Shown here piece by piece: positions 4,436 through 64,000 of a DNA stretch of 64,000 nt. This DNA is from Callaeas wilsoni. Taxonomy: Eukaryota > Chordata > Aves > Passeriformes > Callaeidae. The stretch is from NCBI GenBank assembly GCA_013398955.1, contig VWPU01014792.1:1-64000 (forward strand), written 5' to 3'. Each line of letters starts with the position of its first letter. Positions within the stretch are counted from its first letter, which is position 1. Position numbers and translations under genes: made by a program. Below the pieces are notes generated by a model, which saw nothing but the letters and a program-made list of their open reading frames with translations, ran no database searches and was not told the origin of the DNA.

Positions 4436-4440
4436 TCTGT
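4436..4440. repeat. Left target-site duplication TCTGT of the 4441-5824 LTR
   Basis: This is identical to the five bases TCTGT at 5825-5829 directly after the LTR. It marks the integration site and fixes the LTR edges. Confidence 0.85.
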
Positions 4441-5824
4441 TGTGTTGATTTGTCACAGCCTGGTTTTTGCTAGTGGGGCAGGGCCACAGAAGTGGCTTCT
4501 GTGAGAAGCTGCTAGAAGCTTCCACGATGCCCAATAGAGCCAATCTCTGGTGGCTTTGAAGATGGGCATTCTACTGAGCCAATTAGAGAGGTTAGTAATG
4601 CCTCTGTGATGACACATTTAAGAAGAAAATCAAAACAGCGCAAGCACAGTATTTTTCAGGGGGCCATCCCCGGCACAGCGCCCAGTGATGCACCACCATG
4701 GCTGCTGCCATCTCAGTGCAGCCCACGGCGAGCCTTGCCTGCTCAGCCACCCCTAGCCAGCTGCGCTGCAGGTGGAAGGTCAGGGGCAGTGGCGGCGGCT
4801 TCTCCTTCCCGGTGCCCCACACGAAGAGAGGCATTAAACAGCCCCAGTGCCTCGGCAGCCGCCACTGCATGCGCGATGGCCGCGGGGCCGCGTAGCTGAC
4901 GGTGAAAAGGTGGCAGGCAAATCCCTGACAAGGAACCTAGACGAGATTAACTTCTTGGCACTGCAGGATCTCGCAAGAATCTTTGAATTAATGGAACTTG
5001 TTGGCAATGGTACCCACAAGCAGCAGTTTTTCTTCTAGTCAGAGGAGGAAGTGAAGACACTTGAGAGAAAACATGGTGACACCAAGGTCAGTGGAAAAAA
5101 ACCAGAGGGGGAGGAGGTGCTCCAAGCATCTGAGCCGAGATTCCTCTGCAAGCCATAGTAAGGACTACAGTGAAACAAACTGTTCCCTTGTAATCCATGA
5201 AGTCCATGGGGGATGCAGAGATACACTTGCAGCCTGTGGGAAAAGTCCTCACACCGAAGCAGGTGGATGCCAGAGAAAGCTGTGATCCAGTGGGACACCC
5301 GAATAGAGAGAGAGGGCCTCTGCTTCCAGAGACAGAGAGAGGCCTTGCTTCCAAACTAGAGCAGCCTATCCTTAAAAGACTGCACCCTGTGGATGAGTGA
5401 CCCATGGCACAACCATTTTGGGAAGACTGTTTGCCCATGGGAAGGACCGCACCACGTAGCAGGACAAAGACTCCTCTCCCTGAGTGAACAGAAGATCTCC
5501 AGTGATGAACTGACCAAAACTCCCATGCTCTGTCTCCCTGCACTGTTGGTGGGAAAGAGGGAGGGGCTGGGGGGAGAAAAAGGTGTTTTAAAGGCTTGTT
5601 TTACTTCTCATTTTCCTCCTCTCACTCTGTTAATAATAAATTTACCTTATACCTTTAAATTTGAACCTGTTTTGCCCTTAAGGTGTTTTTCTCCCAAAAT
5701 TTATGTCAACTTGTGAGCCCTTTGTTAATATTTTTCCCCCTCTCTTCTGCCCAGCTATAGCAGAAAAGAGTGAGCGAATGACTTTCGTGAATACCTGGCA
5801 TTTGGCCAATATCAAACCATGGCA
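4441..5824 (+). mobile_element. Solo LTR, ERVL-like, with 5-bp TSD and internal host-derived insert
   Basis: The element starts TGTGTTG and ends CATGGCA, giving canonical TG...CA termini. It is flanked by perfect 5-bp direct repeats TCTGT at 4436-4440 and 5825-5829. A 5-bp duplication is usual for ERVL-class retroviruses. U3 carries a CCAAT box at 4579-4583 and a TATA-like CATTTAA at 4615-4621. A polyadenylation signal AATAAA lies at 5635-5640. The body (5040-5560) has the degenerate 'gagcaggtggatgccag' type of repeats I remember from a common avian, especially passerine, ERVL LTR. No gag or pol sequence is present, so it is a solo LTR left by recombination. At 1384 bp it is longer than I expect for the family because of a foreign block at about 4650-5036, described separately. 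The family name is from memory and not checked; the boundaries are read directly. Confidence 0.88.
4650..5036 (+). pseudogene. TNIK: Captured 5' end of TNIK (MAP4K4-family kinase) mRNA inside an LTR
   Basis: This block is absent from the LTR family as I remember it. It lies between LTR sequence ending near 'gcgcaagcacag' and LTR sequence resuming at 'agtcagaggaggaag'. Its first 250 bases are CpG-rich, like a vertebrate 5'UTR. From 4910 to 5023 one frame aligns without gaps to the first 38 residues of TNIK: the segments NLDEI, ALQD and IFELMELVGNGT correspond to SLDEI, ALRD and IFELVELVGNGT. By eye about 23 of 38 residues agree. The match includes the start of the kinase glycine-rich loop (GNGT). 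The TNIK start codon is GTG here (4910-4912), and homology stops after Q38, followed by a TAG at 5036-5038, so it cannot make a kinase. In the MAP4K4/MINK1/TNIK family, as I recall it, an intron falls near residue 19. None is present here, which suggests a spliced RNA source. The ELVELVGNGT and LDEI pattern fits TNIK better than MAP4K4 or MINK1. This is inference and needs alignment. Confidence 0.72.
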
Positions 5825-5829
5825 TCTGT

Positions 5830-21184: not shown

Positions 21185-21550
21185 GACACAGATGATTCCA
21201 GGCAGTTCCAGCTGGTTCCAACAAACCCAACACAGGACATAGCTGAGCCCCTCGGTCAAGCTCATGTTACCTCTGAGCAAAGGTATTTAAGAAAGGTCAC
21301 AATGCTGTGAACAGTGAGATTTTTAAAAAAAAAAAAAAATGCAAGAAATGACCCTGCAAACACCAAGGTCAGAAAAGGAGGAGAGGGAAGATGTTTCCCA
21401 AGCTCCAGAGCAGTGACTCCCCCTGTGGCCTACAGAGAGGATCACACTGGAGCACAAAGCCACACTGCAGTAAATGCAGGATCTTATGCCGGAGAAGGTA
21501 GATATTTTCTGTCAGGAACTGTGGCCTGTGGAGAGCTCCTATTCCCAAAA
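21185..21550 (+). mobile_element. Old partial LTR related to the 4441-5824 family
   Basis: The order of blocks matches the LTR at 4441-5824. 'ccagctggttccaaca' and 'agctgagcccctcgg' lie in U3. TATTTAA follows at 21284-21290, where the other copy has CATTTAA. 'aacaccaaggtcag' plus 'gaggagaggga' corresponds to 'gacaccaaggtcag' plus 'gagggggagg'. Then come 'ctccagagcagtgac' and 'gccggagaaggtaga'. It lacks the TNIK-like insert; the two flanking LTR blocks are separated here by a short stretch with a run of about 15 A. No clean termini or target-site duplication are found, so it is truncated or heavily decayed. Confidence 0.65.
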
Positions 21551-33845: not shown

Positions 33846-33960
33846 TTGCAATTACTGACATAAGCAAGGATGCTATACTGTAAATATTGAGACATAATTG
33901 GTAAGACAGGTGAGAGTAGTGGAGAGTCCTAAATTATGGGTCAGAATAGTCACATTTCTT
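33846..33960. repeat. Dispersed duplicate, copy A (about 115 bp)
   Basis: This is about 85% identical by eye to 37022-37130, in direct orientation about 3.2 kb away. The best-preserved core is 'gagacataattggtaagacaggtgag', followed by 'ttatgggtcagaatag'. Similarity fades abruptly outside the unit on both sides. All three forward frames are closed by stops, so it is not a coding exon. Confidence 0.8.
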
Positions 33961-37021: not shown

Positions 37022-37130
37022 AAAACTGCAATTACTGACACAAGCTACACTGTGACAATTGAGACATAATTGGTAAGACAGGTGAGGGTAGGGAAAGTCC
37101 CTTATTATGGGTCAGAATAGCCACACTTCT
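37022..37130. repeat. Dispersed duplicate, copy B (about 109 bp)
   Basis: This is the direct-orientation partner of 33846-33960. Relative to copy A it has a deletion of about 7 bp in 'caagctacactg' and a few substitutions. The core 'gagacataattggtaagac' is unchanged. Confidence 0.8.
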
Positions 37131-52181: not shown

Positions 52182-52959
52182 TCTGGGGAGATCAAGCTTT
52201 CAATTTAATATTTTCATTTTGTGGCTCCTTTCATGAATCAAAATCTTTTTCGTGTATAAGGTTAAATATACTCCCCATGGATAAACTGTTCTAGGGGTAA
52301 GAGTAGCCTGGGGTCTTAATGCGTTCCTGTGGGTAGTTAAGGACAGGTTAACTCAGCACACGGAGTCAGCCGCCGCGGCACAAGACTCGAGGGTGTCCTC
52401 GCTGGCAGCAACTCGCAGTGGCACAGCGCTGACACAAGGCAGAGTACGGCGCGGAAGACAAAGAGGCGGGAGAGGTCTTCTGTATGGGTCTCCAAGGTTT
52501 ATTGCCTCGAAGGGGTCCAGGGACAAAAGAACCTCGAGGCGCGGAGAGCAGGGACTCTTATAGGGTTAAGGGGGATCAGGATACAACCAATGGGTGAAGG
52601 GCAAGAGGGAGAGGAGCAGAACCGGATTGGGGGAGAACAACCAATGGGGTGAAGAATCCAAAACCAACCAATGGGGATAGAGAACTGGGGGAACTTTCCA
52701 GAACAGGGACTTGGATTGACAAGGGGAGGGTACAACATCGTGACTGACAGGGCTGAGGGAGGAGAATGAGGTACTGCAACAGGGTCTGGGGTCTTGCAAC
52801 ATAGATCTGGGGAGATCAAGCTTTCAATTTAATATTTTCATTTTTTGGCTCCTTTTATGAATCAAAACCTTTGTCTTGTATAAAGTTAAATATATTCCCC
52901 ATGGATAAACTGTTCTAGGGGTAAGAGTAGCCTGGGGTCTGAGGTCTTGTAACATAGAT
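52182..52959. repeat. 153-bp tandem duplication, first copy split by an LTR
   Basis: Copy 1 is 52182-52316 plus 52788-52806, and copy 2 is 52806-52959. Both read 'tctggggagatcaagctttc', continue through 'ccccatggataaactgttctagggg', and end at 'ggtcttg(c/t)aacatagat'. By eye about 9 differences in 153 bp separate them (roughly 6%). Removing the LTR at 52317-52781 and one of its flanking GGGTCT hexamers restores copy 1 exactly to the structure of copy 2. The duplication therefore existed before the LTR arrived. Confidence 0.88.
52317..52781 (-). mobile_element. Young CpG-rich solo LTR, inverted, 6-bp TSD (class II/ERVK-like)
   Basis: The insertion is flanked by perfect hexamers GGGTCT (52311-52316 and 52782-52787). 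Six-base duplications are typical of class II (ERVK, alpha/beta-like) retroviruses. On the minus strand it begins TGTTGCAGTACC. U3 has at least three inverted CCAAT boxes (plus-strand CCAAT at 52587, 52641 and 52668). A TATA box TATAAGAG lies near 52556-52562 and AATAAA at 52498-52503, which gives a short R region of about 30-60 bp. U5 (52317-52480) is GC-rich and keeps many CpG sites, so the copy is younger than its neighbours. The 3' terminus is odd: after ...CGCA there are three more bases (TTA on the minus strand) before the duplication. No internal genes are present. Confidence 0.88.
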
Positions 52960-63865: not shown

Positions 63866-64000
63866 TGTGTTGGTTTAACACAGCCTGGCTTTTACTGGGG
63901 GTGGGAGAAGCCACAAAGGCAGCTGCCTAGAGAGAAACTGCTTGAAGATTCTACTGCATTCAGCAGAGCCAATCTGTGAAGGTTCTGACAATGGACATAT
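63866..64000 (+). mobile_element. 5' part of an LTR of the 4441-5824 family, cut by window end
   Basis: 'tgtgttggtttaacacagcctggcttttactgggg' aligns with the start of the LTR at 4441 ('tgtgttgatttgtcacagcctggtttttgctag'). The match continues through 'agccacaaaggcagctgcc', 'cagcagagccaatctgtgaagg' and 'gacaatggacat'. By eye roughly 70% is shared. Only the first 135 bp of U3 lie inside the window. The five bases before it are GGTTT; the other edge cannot be seen. Confidence 0.85.

Follow-up and report, generated by a model that had tools for sequence, protein, structure and literature searches.

We found a long terminal repeat (LTR) that carries the 5′ end of a spliced host mRNA, that of the kinase gene TNIK, broken off inside an exon, and that has multiplied in the genome of Callaeas wilsoni together with this captured piece. 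The LTR occupies positions 4441–5824 on the forward strand of the window, the 64,000-nucleotide stretch of contig VWPU01014792.1 that was analysed. Its captured block of about 364 bp (roughly 4660–5023) consists of 5′ untranslated region (5′UTR), exon 1 (codons 1–19) and the first part of exon 2, up to about codon 38. We propose that a reverse transcriptase probably switched templates onto TNIK mRNA and made an LTR with a host leader just past its TATA-like box.

The window copy is 1384 bp in length, starts with TG, ends with CA and is directly flanked by identical 5-mers, TCTGT at 4436–4440 and again at 5825–5829. Thus, it is a complete solo LTR with a target-site duplication (TSD), enclosing the TNIK block. 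The U3 part (4441–4645, from aligned copies and a motif scan) contains the TATA-like sequence ATTTAAG at 4616, and the rest of the LTR (R and U5, 5024–5824, from aligned copies, a profile search and a motif scan) contains AATAAA at 5635. These motifs follow each other in the order expected for an LTR; the U3/R and R/U5 limits are putative. Most other fetched block-bearing copies could be aligned along 4441–5824, and TG and CA termini were seen in the window copy and in most copies inspected. We surveyed TSDs in the 48 block-bearing loci in hand, 40 of which had both ends mapped. Exact 5-bp duplications lay within two bases of the expected ends in 28 of the 40, and at exactly the expected ends in 23 of those 28. 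The 1-kb flanks of the mapped copies had no sequence in common other than two pairwise matches, both well away from the LTR. A 5-bp TSD is used by the ERVL class and can be used by other classes also; the element has this ERVL-like feature and is known here from its LTR sequence alone. The LTR may already bear a name in repeat libraries such as Repbase. Other repeats in the window include two direct copies of 135 bp (52182–52316 and 52806–52940, 95% identical) and a related pair, each member about 110 bp long (33847–33959 and 37027–37130, 81% identical).

A preliminary description of this DNA had placed a host TNIK insert inside the LTR at 4650–5036. The insert is present at about that location, while its edges shift, the right one to 5023 or just before it and the left one to between about 4650 and 4665. 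The 35-residue translation of 4910–5014 had human TNIK as its top match in the PDB (E = 5.2e-6), followed by the paralogues MINK1 (2.3e-4) and MAP4K4 (7.2e-3), and in a scan of both strands of the whole window the block scored 98 against 37 at the next unrelated place. Exon 1 coding sequence (codons 1–19) lies at 4910–4966 and is fused directly to exon 2 sequence (codons 20–38) at 4967–5023, all on the forward strand, the last two codons being less sure. The reading of 4910–5023 as TNIK residues 1–38 therefore holds, both by the PDB match and by comparison with exons 1 and 2 of the gene itself. The start codon is GTG in the window copy, as had been described, and ATG in 27 of 38 aligned copies, so that the GTG is probably a later change. 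These 38 are the first 40 scored elements less two, L026 and L033, removed by a script filter; seven copies fetched later stand outside the set. In the LTR copy L026 (C1344:5167–8541), a partial duplication has taken in some of the TNIK block. In the less mutated copies nearly the whole TNIK N-terminus can be read in frame. A scan against Rfam at the gathering score gave no match, nor did an exact-pattern search of viral contigs or a near search of phage records.

We located the TNIK gene on another contig of the same genome, C5187. Exon 1 (C5187:172866–172922) encodes residues identical to the expected ones at 19 of 19 positions and is followed by GTGAGG. Exon 2 (C5187:146036–146101) is identical at 22 of 22 residues, preceded by a pyrimidine tract and AG (ctcctag) and followed by gtaagg. 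Two further exons on this contig also had TNIK as their top PDB match. The intron between exons 1 and 2 is approximately 26.8 kb, and in all 38 aligned LTR copies the two exons are joined without a gap, from which it follows that the source was spliced RNA. Capture of unspliced, genomic TNIK sequence is thereby ruled out. The preliminary description had argued for a spliced source from a match running across an intron expected near residue 19, and the intron of about 27 kb in the gene, missing from every aligned copy, bears this out. The comparison it had suggested with genomic exons 1 and 2 showed matches to both exons and to the 81 bp available upstream of them. A paralogue was considered as the source and rejected, since TNIK scores best in the PDB and the TNIK gene exon encodes ELVGNGT versus QVVGNGT in the paralogue on contig C10771. 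This paralogue is assigned to MINK1 by elimination only, and a further one on contig C9982 is MAP4K4. DNA searches with two block copies as queries returned LTR copies and not the TNIK gene, probably because C5187 ends only 81 bp above the TNIK ATG.

The CpG-rich part of the block upstream of the coding sequence (4660–4909, forward strand; GC 0.68, CpG observed/expected 0.62) had been described as resembling a 5′UTR. Its origin in the TNIK 5′UTR is confirmed for 81 bp and probable for the remainder. Contig C5187 stops at 173003, in GC-rich sequence, and cuts off the upstream part of exon 1. The 81 bp of the gene that precede the ATG align to 4829–4909 of the window and to the counterparts in other copies, with a mean identity of 79% over the 38 copies (best 87.5%, window copy 78%), which is level with the 80% identity of the coding part. 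The comparison with the gene thus covers 4829–4909; the roughly 170 bp between this stretch and the left edge (4660–4828) are probably further TNIK 5′UTR. The CpG observed/expected ratio is 1.23 in the stretch from the gene and averages 0.57 over the copies, while for the window it is 0.14.

On the right side of the block, identity to the gene by alignment column is mostly 0.79–1.0 up to codon 36. The three columns of codon 37 have identities of 0.37, 0.21 and 0.89, codon 38 returns to 0.89, 0.97 and 0.89, and beyond it identity is at most 0.08 at seven of the nine remaining bases of exon 2. At codon 37 most copies share a change (the first base is alike in 24 of 38 and the second in 30 of 38), and a minority, for example L018 and L010, are gene-like. 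The right joint therefore likely follows codon 38, which places it 9 nt short of the 3′ end of exon 2; it could sit as much as two codons further upstream, but judged from the aligned sequences it is in any case inside exon 2. We reject splicing at the true donor of exon 2, as the homology ends short of it. The left edge lies 36–43 bases past the TATA-like ATTTAAG in the 38 copies, in agreement with the earlier placement of the insert just downstream of this box, and would be near the expected start of the LTR RNA as predicted from the motif. A short similar sequence of the type CAGTTTTTYC is found at both edges, CAGTATTTTTC at 4647–4657 (forward strand) resembling 5024–5035. Within the same copy, a median of 3% of other positions score equally high; the edge repeat ranked within the top 1% in 9 of 33 copies and within the top 5% in 18 of 33.

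Searches of the same genome revealed how widely the block has spread. The window block as query gave 40 scored elements from 129 candidates, a second copy gave 40 from 158, and the more divergent copy L041 gave 40 from 1063, with 40 of 40 alignments in the last search spanning its codons 1–38. The candidate counts are first-look numbers that may include relatives without the block. The union of scored elements from the three queries comprises at least 95 distinct block-bearing elements, and in the first 40 the block is collinear with LTR sequence to its left, to its right or on both sides. Copy number, collinearity with the LTR and TSDs together establish that the captured TNIK piece propagated with the element. 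The preliminary description had taken a shared block in many copies as the outcome expected of retroviral transduction rather than of a one-off insertion, and the 95 elements favour the former.

L041 belongs to another LTR of this family, a more divergent one, which begins at the right end of the window (63866–64000), runs on into L041 (867–2404) and likewise contains the TNIK block. Measured outside CpG sites in the LTR part downstream of the block, it is about twice as distant from the other copies (0.34) as these are from each other (0.16), and the fetched pieces of the L041 type differ from the window type in like manner. We therefore recognise two groups of copies, defined by this distance and these shared differences and not by a tree. 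Codon 37 encodes glycine in four of six L041-type pieces (L086, L088, L092 and L096). The 5′UTR part beside the left edge varies between L041-type copies (L085, L087, L089, L091, L093 and L095), and many genome matches to the L041-type query skip this part.

Related LTRs without the block were also found. The copy at 21185–21550 of the window lacks it, as had been noted, but is a distant relative, matching the downstream-LTR profile with an E-value of 3.8e-9 and the U3 profile at only 1.2 in the same search. With this older LTR, 6 of 30 matches cross the insertion site without extra sequence. Four older LTRs were fetched (L097–L100) and the block profile matched none of them. Profiles of the LTR on the two sides of the block both matched L098 and L100, the U3 profile alone matched L099, and the downstream profile alone matched L097, with E-values of 8e-15 to 0.0014 that are lenient in so tiny a search space. 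In view of these older LTRs, the block is most simply a gain in the lineage.

We compared divergence within the block and around it. The median Kimura two-parameter distance between copies at non-CpG sites was 0.135 for U3, 0.158 for the UTR part, 0.178 for the coding part and 0.161 for the rest of the LTR, which suggests that block and LTR are of similar age. With CpG sites included the block appears faster (0.354 and 0.263), in keeping with decay of CpG-rich sequence under methylation. When the window type is compared with L041, divergence of the host-derived block exceeds that of the surrounding LTR even outside CpG sites (0.48 and 0.59 versus 0.34–0.35). Half of the pairwise value gives about 0.08 substitutions per site per copy. 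Birds have a substitution rate of 2–3 per billion years, and the rough age is then about 25–40 million years.

How the block entered the LTR is best explained by a template switch during first-strand synthesis, because the captured piece is the 5′ end of an mRNA, is truncated within an exon at its 3′ side, and sits near the expected start of the LTR RNA. An LTR element of this lineage would have packaged spliced TNIK mRNA beside its own RNA. First-strand DNA would have copied R almost as far as the 5′ end of the RNA and jumped onto TNIK mRNA within exon 2, and the growing DNA would have copied TNIK back through exon 1 and the 5′UTR before returning, by a second jump, to the 3′ LTR at the point where R begins. 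The product would be a provirus in which both LTRs hold the host leader downstream of the TATA-like box and ahead of the remainder of R, with the block as the putative new start of R. By transposition and divergence this element would then have given rise to at least two groups, many copies of which are now solo LTRs. Two jumps predict a repeat at the edges, and the one observed is weak (median 3%). Template-switch transduction, the main reading of the preliminary description, thus holds with regard to the spliced source and the shared copies, while the order of the jumps and their occurrence during retroviral reverse transcription are what we infer from the form of the product.

The main rival is a chimeric transcript, in which an element inside TNIK was reached by a transcript from the TNIK promoter that was spliced or read through into R, packaged and reverse transcribed. 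It is suggested by the gene sequence after codon 38, GGGCAG|GTCTATAAG, where CAG|GT resembles a weak cryptic donor, and has a precedent in the human retrotransposon subfamily SVA_F1, which acquired MAST2 exon 1 by 5′ transduction (parts of PMC6928650). However, the junction lies within exon 2, at least 9 nt before the true donor, and at the other side no good acceptor is visible: there is no pyrimidine tract ahead of the left edge, and the two letters before its CAGT are CA, TG, CA, GG, CG, TG and CA in seven copies, never AG. A second unusual strand transfer would still be required, and we consider this route rather unlikely. LINE machinery primes its copying at the 3′ end or poly(A) of an mRNA. 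Insertion of a TNIK cDNA piece by a CR1 LINE into one LTR of an active element, followed by spread, would account for the short near-repeat on both sides of the block, which had earlier been read as leaning towards a LINE insertion. We do not share that leaning, as the repeat is short and modestly above chance, and the homology ends at about codon 38 with neither the 3′ end nor the poly(A) that mark a processed pseudogene. The piece moreover lies near the expected RNA start and would have needed further steps to pass from one LTR to both, and we consider this origin distinctly improbable. Late insertion of one processed pseudogene into an LTR that was already old is refuted by the 95 distinct carriers, with the block collinear with the LTR and TSDs that enclose the LTR as a whole, and is left with hardly any probability. 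It might finally be argued that the block, which belongs to the LTR in the copies fetched, is ordinary LTR sequence resembling TNIK by chance. The match of about 80% to the gene exons and to 81 bp of untranslated sequence, together with the in-frame readability of the less mutated copies, refutes this reading and makes its probability practically negligible.

The TNIK leader may have replaced the element's own RNA start, and we raise, tentatively, that a CpG-rich, host-like leader aided transcription or translation; a role for the GC-rich leader in expression is possible. The short frame may also have been translated for a time, yielding TNIK 1–38 and a group-specific tail. This tail is very short in window-type copies, and in L041-type pieces the frame continues to near QFSPESEKRKR. 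The 114-nt frame is free of stops in 26 of 38 window-type copies and contains a stop in three of six L041-type pieces (L086, L088 and L094). Differences from the gene by codon position (0.181, 0.173 and 0.256, confounded by CpG sites) are not convincing evidence that the short frame was under selection in the 38 copies.

MAST2, like TNIK, encodes a kinase. Capture of host mRNA by retroelements is already known, and comparison with other systems indicates what is particular to this one. Crocodilian endogenous retroviruses captured KIT-ligand (CrocERV29) and nectin3 (CrocERV31) mRNA, which was likewise taken into a lineage and inherited by later copies, but there a coding gene is placed in the internal region, whereas here 5′UTR and about 38 codons lie in the LTR and form no complete gene (parts of PMC4299795). 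Rous sarcoma virus with src is also a retrovirus carrying host-derived sequence, though as a functional gene outside the LTR, while the part captured here is unable to make a kinase (parts of PMC4299795). SVA_F1 resembles our case in that a retrotransposon subfamily opens with a gene's GC-rich first exon, and an advantage for the element was proposed; it differs in being mobilised by LINE-1 proteins, whereas here two spliced exons, ending inside exon 2, lie within an LTR (parts of PMC6928650). In barley BARE-2, abnormal template switching placed foreign sequence in the LTR and gave a new promoter class, the donor there being the retrotransposon Wis-2 rather than a host mRNA (parts of PMC13317346). 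Literature searches for TNIK with endogenous retrovirus and LTR found none, those for TNIK with retrotransposon and avian gave nothing related as judged from the listed matches, and a broader search on such captures held no such case among the matches listed; main-text portions of a paper on estrildid finch LTRs (PMC6523648) describe no such capture. An LTR that took up the 5′ end of an mRNA and went on to multiply with it appears to represent a new variant.

Gene annotation and read mapping could confuse solo LTRs of this block-bearing family with TNIK exons. About a hundred examined copies preserve a probable fossil of template switching by a retroelement onto a host mRNA, in which the LTR was changed and not the coding part. 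A role of the leader in expression would, if true, explain how the lineage came to comprise at least two groups and perhaps several hundred LTRs, if not more. The family makes it testable whether a stolen host 5′ leader aids the spread of a retroelement, an idea already put forward for SVA_F1 of primates.
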